Source: a bacterium (lineage in GTDB: Bacteria; CG2-30-53-67; CG2-30-70-394). From it: DNA of 28,796 nt. Each line of letters begins with the position of its first letter. Position 1 is the stretch's first letter. The notes under the pieces are model-generated. The model saw only the letters and a list, made by a program, of their open reading frames with translations, ran no database searches and was not told the origin of the DNA. Of the stretch, positions 2,944 through 28,796 are shown one piece after another. The stretch covers positions 1 to 28,796 of the forward strand of contig JAJRSX010000046.1 of assembly GCA_024278555.1 (NCBI GenBank), written 5' to 3'. The position numbers were made by a program, and so were the translations under genes.

Positions 2944-3037
2944 CGTAGGGTGCGCCAAGCGCAGCGCGGCGCACCATGGAGCTCCGTGGTGATGCCCGAC
3001 CTTTCGGTGCGCCGCCCTGCGCTTGGCGCACCCTACG
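2944..3037. repeat. 32-bp near-perfect inverted repeat (GTAGGGTGCGCC type) after the sigma factor gene
   Basis: The arms at 2944-2975 and 3006-3037 are reverse complements with one mismatch in 32, separated by 30 nt. The right arm ends directly at the sigma factor stop codon (3038-3040). A transcript of the minus-strand gene would form a strong GC stem, without a clear U-tract, so it may act as an mRNA 3'-end stem. Repeats beginning GTAGGGTGCGCC are a known dispersed palindrome type in proteobacteria. Confidence 0.75.
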
Positions 3038-3958
3038 TCAATCGAGGAGAAACTCCTCGAGGACGGCGCCGTAGTCGCGGACGATGCGCCTGAGCTTCTT
3101 CAGGGCCTGCCCCTCAATCTGGCGGATGCGCTCGCGGGTGACCCCGAACTCCTTGCCGATCGACTGGAGGGTCTTGCCCTCGCCGTTGTCGTCGAAGCCG
3201 AAGCGCAGCTCGATCACCCGCCGCTCGGTCTCGGAAAGGGCGGCGAGCCACTGGTCGATGAGCTCGTGGCGCTTGAAGATCTCGATCACGTAGCTTGGAG
3301 AGAGCGCCCCCTGGTCCTCCACCAGATCGCCGAGGGTGGTGCCCGAGTCATCGGCCACCGGCACATCCAACGACTGGGCATCGCGCACCAGCCCCATGAG
3401 CCGCCGCACCTCCTCCACGGTGGTGTCCATGAGCTCCGCGAGCTCCTCGTTCGAGGGGCGCTCACCGTACTGCTGGGTCGCCTTGGCCAGGGTCCGCAGG
3501 AGGCGCGACAGGCGGTCATCGATGTGGACCGGCAGGCGGATGGTGCGGAGCTGGTTGACGAAGGCGCGCTCGATCGACTGCTTGATCCACCACGAGGCGT
3601 AGGTGGAGAGCTTGAAGCCGCGCCGCCAGTCGAACTTCTCCACCGCCCGGATCAACCCCAGGTTGCCCTCCTCGATGATGTCGAGGAAGGGGAGGCCGCG
3701 GTTGCGGTACCGCTTGCCGATGTTCACCACCAGCCGCAGATTCGCCTCGATCATGTGGGACCGCGCCGCCATGTCGCCCTTCTCGATCCGCTTGGAGAGC
3801 TCCACCTCCTCCTCGCGGGTGAGGAGCGGCACCTTACAGATCTCCTGGAAGTAGATCTTCAGGGTGTCGAGGGTCTTGCCCTCCTCACGCTGCGCCGGCT
3901 CCGGCCTCCCCTCCGGCGGCTCCGCGGGGTCATCCTGTTTCGGGGGGACACGGCTCAT
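3038..3958 (-). CDS. rpoS: RNA polymerase sigma-70 family factor, group 2 (RpoS-like)
   Basis: The 306-residue protein directs RNA polymerase to promoters. It has region 1.2 (about 30-62), region 2 (about 65-135, with EEGNLGLIRAVEKFD and the -10 recognition segment around STYASWWIKQSIERA), region 3 (about 145-222) and region 4 (about 232-300), with the -35 helix-turn-helix in GVTRERIRQIEGQALKKLR. It lacks the long region 1.1 and non-conserved insert of RpoD, which points to a general-stress RpoS-like factor. The start is fixed by GGAGGAG placed 9 nt before the ATG at 3956-3958. The frame runs on upstream to 4072 but with no ribosome site there. Assignment to rpoS rather than another group 2 sigma is an inference from size and domains. 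Confidence 0.85.
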   Translation of the reverse strand: MSRVPPKQDDPAEPPEGRPEPAQREEGKTLDTLKIYFQEICKVPLLTREEEVELSKRIEKGDMAARSHMIEANLRLVVNIGKRYRNRGLPFLDIIEEGNLGLIRAVEKFDWRRGFKLSTYASWWIKQSIERAFVNQLRTIRLPVHIDDRLSRLLRTLAKATQQYGERPSNEELAELMDTTVEEVRRLMGLVRDAQSLDVPVADDSGTTLGDLVEDQGALSPSYVIEIFKRHELIDQWLAALSETERRVIELRFGFDDNGEGKTLQSIGKEFGVTRERIRQIEGQALKKLRRIVRDYGAVLEEFLLD

Positions 3959-4078
3959 CGCGTTATGCTCCTCCGCAACGACACAGCAGGCGTCGGCACG
4001 AACAATGAGTGTGGGGGGGGCGTGAGAGGTGGTCAACGGGGAGCGGGGTACGAGATTAGCGGGTACTCTCACCCTCCG

Positions 4079-5131
4079 ATGGATACGGACGGTCTGCTGA
4101 TTTCACCGCTGGAGGGAGAGCCGCACCCGCGGGGGAGACGCGACATCCTCCTCCTGCTCCTCCTCTCCCTCCTCCTCCACCTCGTCCTCGCCCTCCTGCT
4201 CACCACCACCCTGCGCGACTGGTGGCGACCGCCACCGCCACCGCCGGTGCGCTGGATCGAGGTCGTCGAGCCGCCGCCGGAGCCCGCGCCGCCGAGACGC
4301 ACCCTGCCGATCGTGGAGACCCCGGAGATCGAAGAGAGCCCACCGCCAAAGCGGCCGGAGGCGCGGGCCGAGCGGACTCTGCGCAAGCAGGGAACGAACA
4401 GGGAGGCGGCGGCGCCGGAGGAGGGGACGATCCGCCAGATCCCCATGGCCCCGCCGCCACCGGCGAAGGCGAGGCCAACCCCGAAGGTGGCCCCAAAGCC
4501 GGCCGCGCCGCCGCAACCCCGCCCGCGGCCACCGGCGAAGGCGGCGCGGGCCAAGCCCCCGGCCACGCCGGAGATCCCCGAGGGCGACCTCCTCCCGGCG
4601 CCGACCCTGGAGACGCCGTCCACCGCACCCCCACGGCCGGAGGAGGTGATGCCACCACCGTCGCCGCCGAGCGCCCCGGCGACCCCACCGCGCCGTGGGG
4701 TCGAGCTGGTGCCGTCGTGGGCCAGCCCGGTCTACCAGCCGTACATGGCGCCGCGCCCCGGCGCCCGGGCGCAGGCGCCGGACCCCGGCCACCGGGTGAT
4801 CCCCCTGGAGACCCAGGACGACCGCTTCGTCTCCTACTTTCTGAAGATCAAGCGGCAGATCGAGTTCATCTGGAGCTACCCGCGCGAGGCGGCGATGCGC
4901 GGTGAGTCCGGGAGCTGCGTGATCCAGTTCACCATCCTCAAGGACGGCCGCCTCGCCGGCCCGCCGCAGCTCCTGCGCTCCTCACGCTTCACCGCCCTCG
5001 ACCGCGAGGCCCTCGGGGCGGTGGCCGACGGCGCCCCCTACCCGCCGATCCCCGAGCGGCTGGCGACCGAGTCGCTGACGGTGACGGGGCAGTTCCAGTA
5101 CATCCTCCACACCAACCCCTTCATCCGCTAG
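4079..5131 (+). CDS. TonB-family energy transducer
   Basis: The 350-residue protein has the TonB plan: a short cytoplasmic N terminus, one membrane segment (about 22-44, Leu-rich), a long Pro/Ala-rich periplasmic spacer (about 50-245, with PPPPPP and repeated PKP/PAP stretches) and a TonB C-terminal domain (about 248-350). Such proteins pass proton-motive energy from ExbB-ExbD to outer-membrane receptors; no exbB or exbD is adjacent. It is divergent from the sigma factor gene, with 120 nt between the starts. The ATG at 4079 begins the recognisable protein; no good Shine-Dalgarno sequence precedes it. The btuB-type receptor at 22710 is a possible client, but this is only inferred. Confidence 0.88.
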   Translation: MDTDGLLISPLEGEPHPRGRRDILLLLLLSLLLHLVLALLLTTTLRDWWRPPPPPPVRWIEVVEPPPEPAPPRRTLPIVETPEIEESPPPKRPEARAERTLRKQGTNREAAAPEEGTIRQIPMAPPPPAKARPTPKVAPKPAAPPQPRPRPPAKAARAKPPATPEIPEGDLLPAPTLETPSTAPPRPEEVMPPPSPPSAPATPPRRGVELVPSWASPVYQPYMAPRPGARAQAPDPGHRVIPLETQDDRFVSYFLKIKRQIEFIWSYPREAAMRGESGSCVIQFTILKDGRLAGPPQLLRSSRFTALDREALGAVADGAPYPPIPERLATESLTVTGQFQYILHTNPFIR

Positions 5132-22447: not shown

Positions 22448-22615
22448 CTGCCGCTCCCCTCGCTGGGGTGACGGGAAGGGGGTGTGAATCCTCCACGGAC
22501 CCGCCGCTGTGTTTGGTGAGGCGGTCGCAGTTGCCATTGGCCCTCGGGTCGAGAAGGCGCGGCCGCCGCGGAGCTTCGGCTCTACGCCATGAGTCAGAAG
22601 ACCGTCCCCGGCGTT
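22448..22615 (+). promoter_or_regulatory. Cobalamin riboswitch
   Basis: The conserved landmarks occur in order: GACGGGAAGGGGGTGTGAAT (about 22470), TCCACGGACCCGCCGCTGT (to 22510), GCCATTG (about 22533), GGGTCGAGAAGGCG (about 22545) and the B12 box GAGTCAGAAGACCGTCC (22591-22607). This is the layout of adenosylcobalamin-type riboswitches. Further stems lie between it and the btuB start (TCGAACCCTGCT/AGCGGGTCGA near 22618-22650, CCGG-TGGA-CCGG, GGGG/CCCC), which could be the expression platform. It should repress the downstream corrinoid operon when cobalamin is plentiful. Exact 5' boundary is approximate. Confidence 0.92.
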
Positions 22616-22709
22616 TGATCGAACCCTGCTTCGCGGAGTGAGCGGGTCGAGCCGGTGGACCGGGGTTGGATACCCCTGCCCTCTGCCCGACGCCTCTCCG
22701 CGCCGGGCC

Positions 22710-24677
22710 ATGAGCCACCGACACATCCTCCCCCTGGCGCTCGCCGCGACCCTGGTCGCCGCCCCCGCCGCCCCCCTCGACCTGGCGCCGTTGGCGGTGG
22801 AGGCGCCGCCGTGGCCGGCGGAGGACGCCACCGCCGCCGCCACGGTGCTTGCGCCGCAGGGGGAGCGGGCGCGGGCGCGCGACCTCCCCGACCTCCTGGA
22901 GGAGTCGGCCGGGGTGAGCGTGCGCCGCTTCGGCGGGGTCGGCTCCTTCGCCACCGTGTCGTTGCGCGGCACCGGCGCCAACCAGGTGGCCCTCTTCCTC
23001 GACGGGATCCCCCTGCGCGCCGCCGAGTCCGGCACCGTCGACCTCTCCACTTTGCCGCTCGCGGCCCTGGCGCGGGTCGAGGTCTACCGCGGCACCTCGC
23101 CGGTGGGGCTCGGCGGCCAGGGGATCGGCGGGGTGGTGAACCTGGTCACGGTGAGCCCCACCCGGCCGCGCACCACCGTCGCCGCCAGCGGCGGCAGCTT
23201 CACCACCCTCCGGGCCGCCCTCACCCACGCCCGCCCCGCCGGCCGCCTCCACCTCCTCGCCCACCTCGACCTCCTGCACACCGCCGGCGACTTCCCCTTC
23301 GACGACGACCACGGCACGCCCCTGAACGGCGCCGACGATGGCCGCCACCGGCGGGCCAACAACCGCCAGGAGCAGGCGAGCCTCCTGCTGAAGGTGGACG
23401 GCCCGGCCCCGGGCGGCCGCTGGCGCGCCACCACGCTTACCTTTGCCCGCGCCGCCGGGGTCCCCGGCCTCGCCCCCCTCACCTCCAGCGAGGCCCACCT
23501 GAGCCAGGGGCGGGAGATCACCGCGCTCACCTGGGAGGGCGAGGGGGGGCGTCTCGCCGGCCTCACCGCCCGCCTCTTCGGCGAGGTGGAGCGGCTCCGC
23601 TTCATTGACCGCCTCGGGGAGGTGGGGGTGGGTCGGCAGGCGAACGATGAGACCACCACCTCGGTCGGGACGACGGTGAAGGGGGTGCGGCAGGTCGGGG
23701 GCCACCGGCTCACCCTCCTCGGCCAGGGGCTCGCCGAGCGGTACCGCTCCACCAACCGCCTGGTCGCGGCCGCCGACACGCCCCCCCAGTCGCGGCAGGT
23801 GGTGACCGTCGCCGCCGAGGATCGGATCGCCCTGGTGGGCGGCCGCCTCACCGTCGCCCCATTGGTGCGCTACGAGCGGTACCGGTACGACTTCGCCGGC
23901 ACAGTCACCTTCGCGGGGCTGCCGCGAGAGGTCGGCGCGCGGCCCGACGTGGGCCACCTCACCGGCAAGCTCGGCCTGCGCTGGGAGGCGGCCGACTCCC
24001 TGTCGGTGCGCGCCAACGGGGGCCGCTACGTGCGCGAGCCGAGCTTCTCCGAGCTCTTCGGCGACCGCGGCGCCCTCCTCGGCAACCCGGATCTCCGGAC
24101 GGAGCGGGGGACCACCTGGGACGTGGGCGGGGAGTGGGAGGGCGACGTGGGGCCGGTGGCGGTGCGCCTCGCCTACACCTACTTCCACCTCAATCTCCAC
24201 GACCTGATCCAGCTCGTCCAGACGAGCCAGCGGGTGGCGCGGCCGGAGAACGCCAGCGGCGCCGCGGTCCGCGGCCACGAGGTGGAGGCACAGGCGCACC
24301 TCGGCCGCCTCGCCCTCACCGTGACCTGGACCCACCAGACGAGCGAGGACCGCTCCGGCGACGCCTTCGCCGACGGCAACCCCCTGCCCGGCCGGCCCGC
24401 CGACGAGGTGGCGGCGCGGGCGACCTGGGAGGGGGGGCGGCTCGCCCCCTTCTACGGGCTCCACTACCAGGGGGAGCGCCCGCTGGACCGGGCCAACCTG
24501 GCCGTGGTCGCCGGCCGCACCCTGCACGACATGGGCCTCCGCTGGCGCCCCCGCGGCCAGGCCGGCCCCACGGTGACCGTGGAGATCGACAACCTCACCA
24601 ACGACGCCACCGCCGACGTCGCCGGCTTTCCCCTCCCCGGGCGGAGCGCGCGCGCCGGGGTGGTGTGGAATTTCTGA
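22710..24677 (+). CDS. btuB: TonB-dependent outer-membrane receptor, BtuB-type (corrinoid uptake)
   Basis: The 655-residue precursor has a signal peptide (about 1-22) and a plug domain (about 55-150: DLPDLLEESAGVSVRRFGGV, ATVSLRGTGANQVALFLDG, VEVYRGTSPVGLGGQGIGG). A long beta-barrel follows, with a receptor-type segment near 430 (YVREPSFSELFGD, NPDLRTERGTTWDVG) and a final GVVWNF ending in the C-terminal Phe. The cobalamin riboswitch upstream and cob genes downstream support a corrinoid substrate; the sequence alone only shows the family. The ATG at 22710 gives the signal peptide; no strong Shine-Dalgarno sequence is seen, consistent with riboswitch control of initiation. The TonB-like protein at 4079 may energise it. 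Confidence 0.93.
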   Translation: MSHRHILPLALAATLVAAPAAPLDLAPLAVEAPPWPAEDATAAATVLAPQGERARARDLPDLLEESAGVSVRRFGGVGSFATVSLRGTGANQVALFLDGIPLRAAESGTVDLSTLPLAALARVEVYRGTSPVGLGGQGIGGVVNLVTVSPTRPRTTVAASGGSFTTLRAALTHARPAGRLHLLAHLDLLHTAGDFPFDDDHGTPLNGADDGRHRRANNRQEQASLLLKVDGPAPGGRWRATTLTFARAAGVPGLAPLTSSEAHLSQGREITALTWEGEGGRLAGLTARLFGEVERLRFIDRLGEVGVGRQANDETTTSVGTTVKGVRQVGGHRLTLLGQGLAERYRSTNRLVAAADTPPQSRQVVTVAAEDRIALVGGRLTVAPLVRYERYRYDFAGTVTFAGLPREVGARPDVGHLTGKLGLRWEAADSLSVRANGGRYVREPSFSELFGDRGALLGNPDLRTERGTTWDVGGEWEGDVGPVAVRLAYTYFHLNLHDLIQLVQTSQRVARPENASGAAVRGHEVEAQAHLGRLALTVTWTHQTSEDRSGDAFADGNPLPGRPADEVAARATWEGGRLAPFYGLHYQGERPLDRANLAVVAGRTLHDMGLRWRPRGQAGPTVTVEIDNLTNDATADVAGFPLPGRSARAGVVWNF

Positions 24678-24710
24678 CCCGACCCCCCCCCCACCGAAAG
24701 GACACCCCCT

Positions 24711-25832
24711 ATGAGAGCCACCCTCCGCACCCTCGCCACGACCCTGCTGCTTGCCGCCCTCGCCGCCTGCGGGAGCTCGGGGGGCGACAGCCACCTGCGC
24801 TTCTCCGTCGGCGACGTGACCTTCGACAGCAACACCCTGGTGGTCGCCGCCGCCGAGTACAGCGGTACCGAGGGGCGGGTCTTCGCCTCGACCTCGGAGG
24901 CGAACCCCACCGTGGCCACCGCCCCCGACCCGGTCTCCACCGACGTGGTGGTGCGCACCGCCGGGAGCTTGGTCTACATCCTCAACCGCACCGCCGGCAG
25001 CCTCCAGCCCCTCGACCCGGCCCAGGGGCTCGCCACCACCTACCAGGTCTCCACCGGCAGCGGCTCCAACCCCCACGACCTCGTCCTGGTGGACGGCCGC
25101 CTCTACATCACCCGCTACGGGGACGCCGCCCTCCTGGTGGCCGACCCCGCCGACGGGAGCGAGCTCGCCACCATCGACCTGGCCCGGTTTGCCGACGCGG
25201 ATGGGATCCCGGAGATGGACCGGATCGCCCTGTGGCGCGGCTCCCTCCTCGTCACCCTCCAGCGCCTCGACGAGGACAACTTCTTCACCCCCACCGACCG
25301 GTCCACCGTGGCGGTGATCGACCCGGCCACCAACCAGGTGACGACCTCCTTCGACCTGGTCGGGGTGAACCCGAACTCCCGCTTCGCCACCGACGGCGAC
25401 CACCTCTTCGTGGCCACCACCGGCAGCTGGGGGGTGGCGGACGGCGGCATCGAGCGGCTCGCCGACGACCTCACCGCCTCCACCACCGTGGTCTCGGGCA
25501 ACGACCTCGGGGGCGACCCGGGCGAGCTGGTGATCGTCTCCCCCACCAAGGGGTACGTGGTGGTGAGCGGCCTCGATTGGGCGAACCCGGACAACCGGGT
25601 GGTCGCCTTCAACCCCGCCACCGGCGATATCGGGACCACGGTCTATGAGACCACCGCCTACCTGCCGGAGATCACCGCCTCCCCGGACGGGAGCCTCCTG
25701 GCGATCGCCGACCAGTCTCCTGCCGACCCCGGCGTGGTGTTGATCGACACCACCACTGACCAGCCCGTGGCCACCGCACCGATCAACGACGCCAACCACC
25801 TGCCGCCGTCGTCGATGGTCTTTCTCCCCTGA
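24711..25832 (+). CDS. Beta-propeller (YncE-like) lipoprotein in the corrinoid uptake operon, BtuG-like candidate
   Basis: The 373-residue lipoprotein precursor has lipobox LAAC with Cys20 followed by Gly, predicting lipidation and outer-membrane location. The mature part has repeated blade-like units, for example VYILNRTAGSLQPLDP, PHDLVLVDGRLYITRYGD, VAVIDPATNQVTTSFDL, RVVAFNPATGDIGTTVYE and GVVLIDTTTDQPV, as in YncE-type seven-bladed propellers. It follows btuB by 33 bp with AAAGGA before the ATG, and precedes btuF by 4 bp. In Bacteroides, BtuG is a propeller lipoprotein that pairs with BtuB and binds B12 very tightly. A similar role here is inferred from fold, location and context, not from shared sequence that I can show. 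Confidence 0.8.
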   Translation: MRATLRTLATTLLLAALAACGSSGGDSHLRFSVGDVTFDSNTLVVAAAEYSGTEGRVFASTSEANPTVATAPDPVSTDVVVRTAGSLVYILNRTAGSLQPLDPAQGLATTYQVSTGSGSNPHDLVLVDGRLYITRYGDAALLVADPADGSELATIDLARFADADGIPEMDRIALWRGSLLVTLQRLDEDNFFTPTDRSTVAVIDPATNQVTTSFDLVGVNPNSRFATDGDHLFVATTGSWGVADGGIERLADDLTASTTVVSGNDLGGDPGELVIVSPTKGYVVVSGLDWANPDNRVVAFNPATGDIGTTVYETTAYLPEITASPDGSLLAIADQSPADPGVVLIDTTTDQPVATAPINDANHLPPSSMVFLP

Positions 25833-25836
25833 CCCC

Positions 25837-27000
25837 ATGGTGCGACACGACACCCCGCCCGGCCGGCGGTCGCTCTCGGGAGGAGCGAGCTCCTGCTCGC
25901 GACCCCGGCCCGCAGGGCCGGCGGGGCCTCCGGCCCTGGATCGCGGGCGACAGCCCGCTCCTACCCACGGTCCGGCGGGTGGCCTCGGCATTGCGAGCCC
26001 GGCGGTAGGAGGGGGGGGGACCCTTGATTCCGGCCCCAGGGGCCTCCCCCTCCGCCCCTGCCGCCGCCTCCTCCTCGCCCTCTGTTTTGTTGCGCTGGTG
26101 GGGGTGGGGGGGGCGGCGTCCGCCCCCCCCACCCCCACCAGCGCAACAAAACAGCGCATCGTCTCCCTGGCCCCGTCGATCACCGAGATCCTCTTCGCCC
26201 TCGGGGTGGGCGGGTCGGTGGTGGGGGTGAGCGACTACTGCGCCGGGCCGCCCGCGGCCCTCCGGCTGCCGCGGGTGGGGGGCTACTTCGTCAACCCGAA
26301 CGCTGAGCGGATCGTCTCCCTCCACCCGACCCTCCTGCTCACCGCCGGGGCGGGTGAGCGGCTGCGGCGGCTGGCGGGGGCGGAGGGGATCCCCTTCCAC
26401 GCCCTGACCATGGACTCGCTGACGCAGGTAGACGCGGCGATCGTCGAGGTGGGCCGGTGGGTGGGAAGGGGGGCGGCGGCGAGACGCCTTGCCGCCCGCC
26501 TCGATCGAGGGCTCGCTGCGGTGCGCCGCCGCTACGCGGCCACCCCTACCCTCCCCACCCTCCTCTCTCTCTCTCGGCCGCCGGGGCGGCTGGCGGGGTT
26601 GATGACCTGCAACCGCGCCAGCTTCCTCTCGGAGCTCCTGGAGATCGCCGGTGGGCGCAACTGCTTCGCCGACGCCCCGTACCGCTACCTCACCCCGGGG
26701 TTGGAGCGGATCGTGGCGGCGGCCCCGGCGGTAATCCTCGAGCTCGCCCCCGACACCCGCACGTGGGCGGGGAAGGCCCACGGCCGGCCGGTGACCGATC
26801 TGCTGCGCCGCCGCCTGATCGCGGACTGGGCCCCCCTCCCTACCATCCCGGCGGTCGCCCACCACCGCATCCACGTCCTCACCCACCCCGACCTCCTGGT
26901 CCCCTCGATCCACCTCCCGGAGGTCGCCGAGGCCATGGCGCGGGCCCTCCACCCGCAAGCGGCGGCCGGTGGAGCCGCCCCCTCGGAGGCGGGCCGGTGA
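25837..27000 (+). CDS. btuF: Cobalamin/corrinoid ABC transporter substrate-binding protein, BtuF-like
   Basis: From RIVSLAPSITEILFALG (nt about 26158 on) the protein is a clear periplasmic binding protein of the BtuF/FepB class, with IVSLHPTLLL, MTCNRASFLSELLEIAGG and a C-terminal DLLVPSIHLPEVAEAMARAL. A signal peptide (RRLLLALCFVALVGVGGAASA) precedes it. The only standard in-frame starts before it are ATG 25837 and GTG 25840; using them adds about 70 Pro/Gly-rich residues encoded by a palindromic repeat, which is unlikely as a protein N terminus. The real start may be a non-standard codon, or a frame error may exist near the G9 tract at about 26011. Its stop overlaps the cobU start. No btuC or btuD follows. 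Confidence 0.8.
   Translation: MVRHDTPPGRRSLSGGASSCSRPRPAGPAGPPALDRGRQPAPTHGPAGGLGIASPAVGGGGTLDSGPRGLPLRPCRRLLLALCFVALVGVGGAASAPPTPTSATKQRIVSLAPSITEILFALGVGGSVVGVSDYCAGPPAALRLPRVGGYFVNPNAERIVSLHPTLLLTAGAGERLRRLAGAEGIPFHALTMDSLTQVDAAIVEVGRWVGRGAAARRLAARLDRGLAAVRRRYAATPTLPTLLSLSRPPGRLAGLMTCNRASFLSELLEIAGGRNCFADAPYRYLTPGLERIVAAAPAVILELAPDTRTWAGKAHGRPVTDLLRRRLIADWAPLPTIPAVAHHRIHVLTHPDLLVPSIHLPEVAEAMARALHPQAAAGGAAPSEAGR
25879..25965. repeat. Composite palindromic element (REP-like), second copy
   Basis: An outer inverted repeat (GGAGCGAGCTCCTGCTCGCG at the left; TCGCGGGCGACAGCCCGCTC then CTAC at the right) encloses two inner hairpins, GGCCC-GCA-GGGCC and GGGGCC-TCC-GGCCC. The plan is that of 6012-6095. 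It lies within the open frame upstream of btuF, between the propeller gene and the recognisable btuF protein. Confidence 0.75.
26083..26153. repeat. 33-bp perfect hairpin within the btuF signal-sequence region
   Basis: The arms 26083-26115 and 26121-26153 are perfect reverse complements with a 5-nt loop GCGTC (26116-26120) and include G8/C8 tracts. They encode the end of the signal peptide and the first mature residues. Both strands translate to nearly the same peptide, CFVALVGVGGA then APPTPTSATKQ. Such a stem in mRNA would be extremely stable. Confidence 0.85.
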
Positions 27001-27521
27001 GCCTCACCCTCATCCTCGGGGGGGCGCGTTCGGGAAAGAGCCGGCGGGCGGAGGCCCTCGCCGCGGTCCACACGGGGGAGGTGGTCTACCTGGCCACCGC
27101 GCCGGCGCTGCCGGGCGACGCCGAGTGGGCCGCACGCATCGCCGCCCACCGGGCGCGGCGGCCGGCCGCCTGGCGCGCGGTGGAGGAGGAGGTCGCCCTG
27201 GTCGCCACCCTCGAGGGCGAGGCGACCCCCGGCCGGCTGGTGCTCGTGGAGTGCGCCACCACCTGGCTGGGGAACCTCCTCCACCGGGGGCTCGACGCAG
27301 AGGGGGAGATGGAGCGACTGGCCGCCCTCCTGCCGGAGCTTCCCGGCGCGATCGTCGTGGTGGCCAACGAGGTGGGGGCGGGGATCGTTCCCGAGTCACC
27401 CCTTTCCCGCCGCTTCCGCGACCTCGCCGGTCTGTTGAACCAGCGCCTCGCCGCCGCCGCCGATCGGGTGGAGTGGCTGGTGGCGGGCATCCCCGTGACC
27501 GTGAAAGGAGAGAGACCATGA
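26997..27521 (+). CDS. cobU: Adenosylcobinamide kinase / adenosylcobinamide-phosphate guanylyltransferase
   Basis: Phosphorylates adenosylcobinamide and then transfers GMP to give adenosyl-GDP-cobinamide, the activated precursor for the nucleotide loop. The 174-residue protein has P-loop GGARSGKS (8-15), the guanylylated His region ARIAAHRARRP with His51, and CATTWLGNLL and ANEVGAGIVPESPLSRRFRD motifs typical of CobU/CobP. It starts at GTG 26997, overlapping the btuF stop (GTGA), with GGAGGCGGG upstream. Its own stop overlaps cobT (ATGA). These overlaps support translational coupling. Confidence 0.95.
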   Translation: MSLTLILGGARSGKSRRAEALAAVHTGEVVYLATAPALPGDAEWAARIAAHRARRPAAWRAVEEEVALVATLEGEATPGRLVLVECATTWLGNLLHRGLDAEGEMERLAALLPELPGAIVVVANEVGAGIVPESPLSRRFRDLAGLLNQRLAAAADRVEWLVAGIPVTVKGERP

Positions 27522-28543
27522 CCATCGCCCCTATCCACGAGCAGGCCGCTGCCGCGGCACGCGCCCGCCAGGACCGTCTCACCAAGCCCACCGGCGCCCT
27601 CGGCCGCCTGGAGGCGATCGCCTGCTGGTTCGCCGGTCGTCAAGGGGTGGCGATCCCCGCCCCCCTCGTCCCCCACTGCCTCCTCTTCGCCGGCGACCAC
27701 GGGGTCGCGGTGGAGGGGGTCTCTGCCTACCCGCCGGCGGTGACCGCGGAGATGGTGCGCAACTTCGCCCGCGGCGGGGCGGCGATCAATGTTCTCGCCC
27801 GGGCGATCGGCGCCGAGGTGACGGTGGTGGACGTGGGGGTGGCCGCCGACCTGAGCGACCTCACCGCCATCGTCCACGCCAAGGTGCGCCCCGGCAGCCG
27901 CAACCTCGCCCGCGAGGCGGCCCTGACCCCCGAGGAGTGGGAGCGGGCGGTGGCGGTGGGGCGGCGGGCCGCGGCCGCGGCGATCGAGCGTGGCGCCACC
28001 CTGCTCCTGCCCGGGGAGATGGGGATCGCCAATACCACCCCGGCGGCGGCCCTGATCTGCCACCTCACCGGTGCCCCTGCTGCCAAGGTGGTGGGCTACG
28101 GCACCGGCGTGGACGAGGAGGCGCGGGGCCACAAGCAGGCGATCGTGGCCGCGGCGGTGGCCCGCGCCGCCCCTCTCTCTGGGGAGGCTGCCCTCGCCGC
28201 CCTCGGGGGGCTGGAGATCGCCGCCCTGGCCGGCGCCTTCCTGGAGGCGGGGGCGCGGGGGGTGCCGGCGGTGGTGGACGGCTTTATCGCCGCCGCCGGG
28301 GCCCTGGCGGCACGGGCGGTGGCGCCGGGGGTGGAGGAGTGGCTCGTGGCCTCCCACTGCTCCGCGGAGCAGGGCCACCGGCTCGCCCTGGAGGGGCTCG
28401 GGCTCTCCCCCCTCTTCGACCTCGGCCTCAGGCTCGGGGAGGGGAGCGGCGCGGCGCTCGCCGTCCCGCTCCTACAGGCGGCCCTCGCCCTCCACCGGGA
28501 GATGGCGACCTTCGAGGAGGCGGGCGTCTCGGAGGGGGTGTAG
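27518..28543 (+). CDS. cobT: Nicotinate-nucleotide--dimethylbenzimidazole phosphoribosyltransferase
   Basis: Makes alpha-ribazole phosphate from dimethylbenzimidazole (or another lower-ligand base) and nicotinate mononucleotide. In the 341-residue protein, TKPTGALGRLE (about 22-32), FAGDHGVAVEGVSAYP (about 57-72), GEMGIANTTPAAA (166-178) and the C-terminal LRLGEGSGAALA carrying the catalytic Glu (Glu308) are all present. AAAGGAGAG precedes the ATG at 27518, which overlaps the cobU stop. Lower-ligand preference cannot be read from the sequence. No bza or bluB gene is in the window, so the base source is not seen. Confidence 0.97.
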   Translation: MTIAPIHEQAAAAARARQDRLTKPTGALGRLEAIACWFAGRQGVAIPAPLVPHCLLFAGDHGVAVEGVSAYPPAVTAEMVRNFARGGAAINVLARAIGAEVTVVDVGVAADLSDLTAIVHAKVRPGSRNLAREAALTPEEWERAVAVGRRAAAAAIERGATLLLPGEMGIANTTPAAALICHLTGAPAAKVVGYGTGVDEEARGHKQAIVAAAVARAAPLSGEAALAALGGLEIAALAGAFLEAGARGVPAVVDGFIAAAGALAARAVAPGVEEWLVASHCSAEQGHRLALEGLGLSPLFDLGLRLGEGSGAALAVPLLQAALALHREMATFEEAGVSEGV

Positions 28544-28548
28544 TCGCC

Positions 28549-28796
28549 ATGGTGGAGAGACTCCTGGAGGCCCTCTCGTGGCTCACCGTGCTCCCGGTGC
28601 GGGTGGCCCGGCCGCGCGGTCTGGGCGCCTGCGCCCCCGCCTTCCCGGCGGTGGGGCTGGTGGTCGGGGGCTTCGCGGCCCTGGCCGGCGACCTCGCCGG
28701 GGGGCGCACTCCCCTGGTGGGTGGCGTGGCCGCGGCGGGGGTGTGGATCGGCCTCACCGGCGCGATGCACCTGGACGGCGTCGCCGACCTCACCGA
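28549..28796 (+). CDS. cobS: Adenosylcobinamide-GDP ribazoletransferase, 3' truncated by window edge
   Basis: The visible 82 codons give MVERLLEALSWLTVLPVRVA, FPAVGLVVGG and MHLDGVADL, matching the CobS N terminus, its first membrane segments and its HLDG(V/L)AD active-site motif. CobS joins adenosyl-GDP-cobinamide to alpha-ribazole (phosphate) at the inner membrane. The ATG lies 5 nt after the cobT stop, so it belongs to the same operon. The rest of the gene is outside the window. Confidence 0.92.
   Translation, partial: MVERLLEALSWLTVLPVRVARPRGLGACAPAFPAVGLVVGGFAALAGDLAGGRTPLVGGVAAAGVWIGLTGAMHLDGVADLT

Follow-up and report, generated by a model that had tools for sequence, protein, structure and literature searches.

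The window analysed here is one complete contig of 28,796 nt, in whose last part a cobalamin riboswitch, a btuB-type receptor gene and the gene of a beta-propeller lipoprotein follow one another on the same strand, continued by btuF, cobU, cobT and the start of cobS. A preliminary description of this DNA, made from the sequence alone, had seen in the lipoprotein a possible proteobacterial counterpart of BtuG, the propeller lipoprotein that accompanies BtuB in Bacteroides. The results presented here point to a corrinoid-scavenging operon whose outer-membrane step would be carried out by two proteins, the BtuB-type receptor and a BtuG-related propeller lipoprotein, a reading to which we assign a probability of about 0.72. 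The elements of the locus are the following.

22449..22624, + strand: cobalamin riboswitch aptamer (Rfam RF00174; cmscan 75 bits against a gathering score of 31.5, E 5.3e-17)
22710..24677, + strand: btuB-type TonB-dependent receptor, whose open reading frame (ORF) can open at GTG 22638 (Pfam and NCBIfam, profile and structure matches)
24711..25832, + strand: BtuG-like seven-bladed beta-propeller lipoprotein, 373 amino acids (fold model, profile, Foldseek, VIA-align)
24711..24770, + strand: signal peptide with lipobox LAAC and predicted lipidated Cys20, codon 24768-24770 (read from the translation)
25837..27000, + strand: btuF-type periplasmic corrinoid-binding protein (Pfam Peripla_BP_2, 4.9e-19; NCBIfam BtuF PRK03379, 2.7e-21)
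27006..27521, start approximate, + strand: cobU, cobinamide kinase/guanylyltransferase of the salvage pathway (Pfam CobU, 3.1e-54, inside ORF 26457-27521)
27515..28543, start approximate, + strand: cobT, 5,6-dimethylbenzimidazole (DMB) phosphoribosyltransferase (NCBIfam PRK00105, 2.7e-125, residues 183-522 of ORF 26969-28543)
28549..28796, + strand: 5′ part of a cobS-like gene that ends at the contig end (MHLDGVADL motif, found by eye, no profile used)

The riboswitch upstream of btuB and the Cys20 lipoprotein beginning 33 bp past the receptor gene agree with the preliminary description, and the lipobox is kept, as LTAC, in the propeller of a member of the same genus. The placement of btuF a further 4 bp on held in part: an ORF does open at 25837, but the true start and signal peptide probably lie about 200 bp inside it, and the 4-bp spacing is doubtful because the first ~70 residues of the ORF look non-coding.

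The propeller protein was modelled with AlphaFold2 from a 77-sequence alignment (mean predicted local distance difference test, pLDDT, 91.6; predicted template modelling score, pTM, 0.87). By our own reading of the DSSP string its strands fit seven blades, the last of which is closed by N-terminal strands, so that the suggested propeller fold is borne out by prediction. The sequence had been described as containing YncE-like repeats; a weak YVTN-repeat match is the sole sequence-model signal for the protein, and its score for the YncE equivalog model, 11 bits, is far below the cut-off of 400. A structural search against BtuG had been proposed, and BtuG was indeed the best match of the model by both methods used, taking the first six places in Foldseek against the PDB and the first nine in VIA-align (best Z 32.2, root-mean-square deviation 2.7 over 308 residues). 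E. coli YncE (Z 27.1) and BtuK1 (PDB code 9s6c, Z 26.1) scored lower. Structure alone barely separates the propeller families, and sequence comparison therefore weighs more. Readings of the protein as a gluconolactonase, a nitrous oxide reductase or AztD were rejected as structure-only likenesses with lower scores and the wrong genomic context.

A single-sequence search of the PDB with the propeller protein returned WD-repeat noise only, so profiles were required. Those built from 4, 19 and 77 relatives, none of which is known to come from Bacteroidota, each placed BtuG first in the whole PDB, with E values of 5e-6, 9e-9 and 3.5e-12, respectively. The top ten PDB sequences found with the 77-member profile were all BtuG (3.5e-12 to 2e-4), followed by WDR5 at 0.024. 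When the family profile was compared by hhalign with that of six BtuG-type proteins (five taken out of Bacteroidota records, the sixth out of another genome, L159), the match was 98.7%, with E 2e-16 over 297 columns; a single BtuG sequence gave 96% and E 3e-9, and E. coli YncE 6.9%. In the opposite direction, a BtuG3 query, with its sequence assembled from PDB output, retrieved dozens of the relatives. Identity of the window protein to BtuG amounts to 11-16%; within Bacteroides, BtuG1 and BtuG3 find each other with only E 5e-9 in a single-sequence search. Loop motifs can be aligned between the family and BtuG (SPRY with NPxD, LGDWPSE with LGGDPGE). In a tree, the Bacteroidota BtuG proteins form one clade apart from the rest, and YncE and several other rows form long branches; the root and the exact position of the window protein are uncertain. 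The preliminary description had left descent and convergence side by side. As BtuG leads in the sequence-profile searches, in profile-profile comparison and in structural matching, and by sequence is well ahead of other propellers, relationship to BtuG by descent is favoured.

A scan of 84,980 species with a 7-row alignment yielded 172 relatives, the best 80 of which were used. They were picked by a peptide pattern and not by their neighbours, and stand closest to the window protein among its relatives; across the domain, a homologue was present in 47 of 337 sampled genomes. Riboswitches in the relatives were called upstream on the same strand with our own covariance model built from Rfam-positive sites. 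Among 116 unique loci, a BtuB-like receptor gene was directly adjacent in 97 and a cobalamin riboswitch lay upstream in 94. In the 55 named loci with 3.5 kb or more of upstream sequence, the receptor was found 54 times, the riboswitch 53 times and at least one of the two every time; the corresponding counts in other genomes were 24/32, 30/32 and 31/32. Further frequent neighbours are pduO, cobU, cobT and btuF. The homologues thus occur overwhelmingly with btuB and cobalamin riboswitches, contrary to the possibility, raised at the outset, that they lie mainly away from corrinoid genes.

Outside Bacteroidota, the propeller-btuB pair occurs in ten phyla or more; the NCBI phyla represented are Nitrospirota, Spirochaetota, Myxococcota, Binatota, Thermodesulfobacteriota, Krumholzibacteriota, Latescibacterota, Eiseniibacteriota, Gemmatimonadota, Handelsmaniibacteriota and Effluviviacota. 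All named records are metagenome-assembled genomes, and a misbinned contig is possible in single cases. No match to the window propeller protein was obtained among plasmids by tblastn. The nearest propeller relative (67% identity; G001, identical to L076) belongs to the same genus and is labelled 'Nitrospirae bacterium CG2_30_70_394', so that with this label and the spread of the pair the term 'proteobacterial' was wrong or at best loose. Some loci depart from the common arrangement. Two tandem propeller genes accompany one btuB in L061, L063 and L059, and in two Thermodesulfobacteriota (L089, L121) the propeller gene precedes btuB, and a stretch of 13 kb contains two cobalamin riboswitches. 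In L053 (G157) a btuB-btuF-cobU-cobT cluster is followed, about 1 kb on, by a propeller gene and a second btuF.

The receptor consists of a TonB-dependent barrel (Pfam TonB_dep_Rec_b-barrel, 1.6e-38) and a plug (3.9e-18). Its best NCBIfam model is TonB-B12 (E 1.7e-37, under that model's full-length cut-off), and a profile of 40 partner receptors placed BtuB1 of the B. thetaiotaomicron BtuB1G1 complex (9.3e-53) and E. coli BtuB (1.3e-52) at the head of the PDB, in accordance with its earlier assignment as BtuB-type. For the receptor part of the structural model 8blw_A was the best match (Z 39.9), with PqqU (38.6) and E. coli BtuB (37.8) close together behind it; the best structures for receptor and propeller are therefore two chains of one solved complex. 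The distance matrices of receptors and propellers are correlated over 78 loci (r 0.86; best of 1000 permutations 0.13), which indicates that the pair has been inherited together and speaks for co-inheritance, not for contact.

Corrinoid binding by BtuG is reported to be sub-picomolar to femtomolar. The window propeller is strongly acidic (net charge −31, isoelectric point 4.05), as is its family, with a median isoelectric point of 4.2 and values below 5 in 89% of the relatives; a BtuG has 4.5 and YncE 8.8. BtuG2 binds corrinoids on a negatively charged face (PMC10404256). Conservation is higher in the top-face loops than in the bottom loops (p 4e-4), and several of the near-invariant motifs (NPxD, ADxDGxPE, NP, DGG, LGG) align with BtuG loops.

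The family appears to be displayed in different ways. A lipobox was found in the window's lineage and in many Myxococcota and Deltaproteobacteria. Among the relatives from Latescibacterota, Eiseniibacteriota, Krumholzibacteriota and Gemmatimonadota, the majority carry a tail of about 105 amino acids at the C-terminus. Of 60 C-terminal tails, 45 matched the type A sorting model of the type 9 secretion system (T9SS) and 8 a dockerin model. In a test for the T9SS protein SprA, its cut-off was exceeded in all 11 genomes with a tailed propeller and in 1 of 7 tail-less ones, one truncated case being left out (Fisher one-sided p ~4e-4, calculated manually; the genomes, where related, do not count as independent), and the window's genome has no SprA above the cut-off. 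A T9SS sorting tail in place of a lipid anchor in T9SS-bearing lineages points to the cell surface, and we infer from this comparison that the family works there, with an export route that varies by lineage. The eight tails of dockerin/EF-hand type possibly represent a third way of attachment; that of L106 was seen directly, and those of L131, L133, L138, L141, L149, L152 and L154 were guessed from a length of 56-61 amino acids.

The organism itself, an uncultured bacterium, probably depends on corrinoid salvage. The riboswitch at the locus is the sole cobalamin riboswitch in a whole-genome search of the 3.06 Mb genome; CbiC, one marker of de novo synthesis, gave no match in this genome (100% complete according to the tool used), and two B12-binding domains scored above cut-off. 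It is on these three results that scavenging is considered probable. One FecCD permease is encoded away from this locus. Corrinoid scarcity would be expected to permit expression of the operon, given the known role of this riboswitch family. The acidic propeller, lipid-tethered to the outer membrane, would then use its conserved top face to capture corrinoid, which it would hand to the receptor for import; BtuF would take over the imported corrinoid, and CobU, CobT and CobS would complete it. That the propeller binds corrinoid, is exposed at the surface of this organism and forms a complex with BtuB as its lid is presumed in this scheme.

Several results weigh against it or limit it. After Cys20 the window protein continues with GSSGGDS, in which there is no surface-export motif of the lipoprotein export signal (LES) type; BtuG2 carries the LES motif MKWD (PMC6143338), and LES is a Bacteroidetes feature. 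Some relatives have neither lipobox nor tail. Pfam DUF5074 (PF16819), the model used for BtuG relatives, did not match the propeller at E values up to 1, and in VIA-align an archaeal YVTN propeller (Z 30.8) comes close behind BtuG. A read-through chain of 1041 residues, made possible by the shared frame of btuB and the propeller gene and aligned in 16 paired rows plus 59 unpaired ones, folded with pLDDT 88.6 and pTM 0.68, the parts being well folded and their relative placement not confident; this fold speaks neither for nor against a lid. Finally, the BtuG2 pocket residues Trp194, Trp272, Tyr316 and Tyr335 have no aromatic counterparts in the family by hhalign, in an alignment that at ~15% identity is locally uncertain. 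The pocket therefore differs from that of BtuG2, and the affinity or preference for corrinoids may differ as well. Because LES, DUF5074 and the pocket aromatics are lacking and corrinoid binding is presumed, we class the protein as a BtuG-related variant and not as BtuG.

That the window's lineage has a lipobox only, without LES and without T9SS, would also suit a periplasmic relay, in which the lipoprotein, instead of catching corrinoid outside, remains in the outer membrane's inner leaflet and hands corrinoid received from BtuB on to BtuF; E. coli yncE, which adjoins pqqU, the gene of the pyrroloquinoline quinone (PQQ) receptor, could be cited in its favour. We regard this relay as unlikely, as the same propeller is found tailed in 11 tested genomes that all possess SprA, which implies surface export, and as BtuG, for its part, is a lid at the cell surface (PMC10404256). 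Still less likely is a convergent recruitment, by which a generic propeller of YVTN/YncE type was placed beside btuB independently of BtuG. Propellers near TonB receptors do exist elsewhere (PqqU-YncE, XusA-XusB), and both the low identity to BtuG and the near-equal score of the archaeal propeller are compatible with such an origin, but BtuG, unlike YncE, is ahead by many orders of magnitude in every sequence-profile comparison, and the two pairs of loop motifs align with it.

The unconserved pocket aromatics, together with a receptor under the TonB-B12 full-length cut-off, would agree with a receptor-propeller pair that imports another tetrapyrrole or a metal complex and is only controlled by B12. 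The presence of btuF, cobU and cobT in the operon, the adjacency of homologues to pduO, cobU and cobT in many phyla and the BtuB identity of the closest solved receptors make this very improbable. The two-protein capture of corrinoids by receptor and propeller is thus the reading we prefer.

Among known systems, BtuG1-3 of Bacteroides thetaiotaomicron, seven-bladed acidic propeller lipoproteins with a btuB neighbour and a cobalamin riboswitch (Wexler 2018, PMC6143338; Abellon-Ruiz 2023, PMC10404256), are the best match by sequence profile and fold. Unlike these, the window propeller occurs outside Bacteroidota, is only 11-16% identical, lacks LES and does not conserve the pocket aromatics; its gene follows btuB, whereas btuG of B. 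finegoldii precedes it. PqqU-YncE of Escherichia coli shares the adjacency of receptor and propeller genes and the general fold, but concerns another cofactor, and YncE is basic and remote by hhalign. XusA-XusB of Bacteroides, a xenosiderophore system, likewise combines a receptor with a propeller lipoprotein, and XusB was among the top Foldseek matches and XusA among the receptor profile matches; its ligand is a siderophore, however, and the match is weaker than to BtuG and BtuB. BtuK1 of B. thetaiotaomicron, a B12-binding lipoprotein of similar fold, matches much more weakly than BtuG. The pqqU-yncE locus of E. coli K-12 (L169) is another TonB receptor/propeller pair, and the theme may be wider.

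BtuG was not found outside Bacteroidetes by BlastP in 313 gut genomes (Wexler 2018, PMC6143338). Altogether three papers describe BtuG as absent outside Bacteroidetes or lipoprotein-capped TonB transporters as exclusive to it (PMC6143338, PMC10404256, PMC12751083), and two of them set the system in the context of competition within a crowded gut. The pair in at least ten other phyla contradicts this confinement. A 2026 paper reports DUF4465 B12-binders in eight clades, often near PF16819 propellers and TonB receptors, so that the field is already moving in this direction; our literature search, with subscription papers and preprints outside its scope, returned no report of the pair in these phyla. 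The observation made in the preliminary description was right and its interpretation largely so, and its reach is wider than was proposed. We think it rather more probable than its opposite that propeller-assisted BtuB uptake is old and widespread in diderms, with interchangeable display by lipid anchor, T9SS tail or dockerin-like tail and with pocket residues unlike those of BtuG. With the pair under riboswitches in uncultured lineages of many phyla, what was taken for a gut specialty would become a general strategy of corrinoid capture; this would also assign a function to many YVTN-like propeller proteins, which make up a large class, and would yield natural pocket and anchor variants for studying the handover of B12 from lid to BtuB.

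Elsewhere in the window, a 702-amino-acid ORF at 3023-5131 (+ strand) has a C-terminal TonB domain (PF03544, 9e-12) and is unusually long for TonB. Between 15169 and 20117, genes for a chromate transporter, a PilJ-domain protein, an ANTAR response regulator and a GAF histidine kinase adjoin one another.

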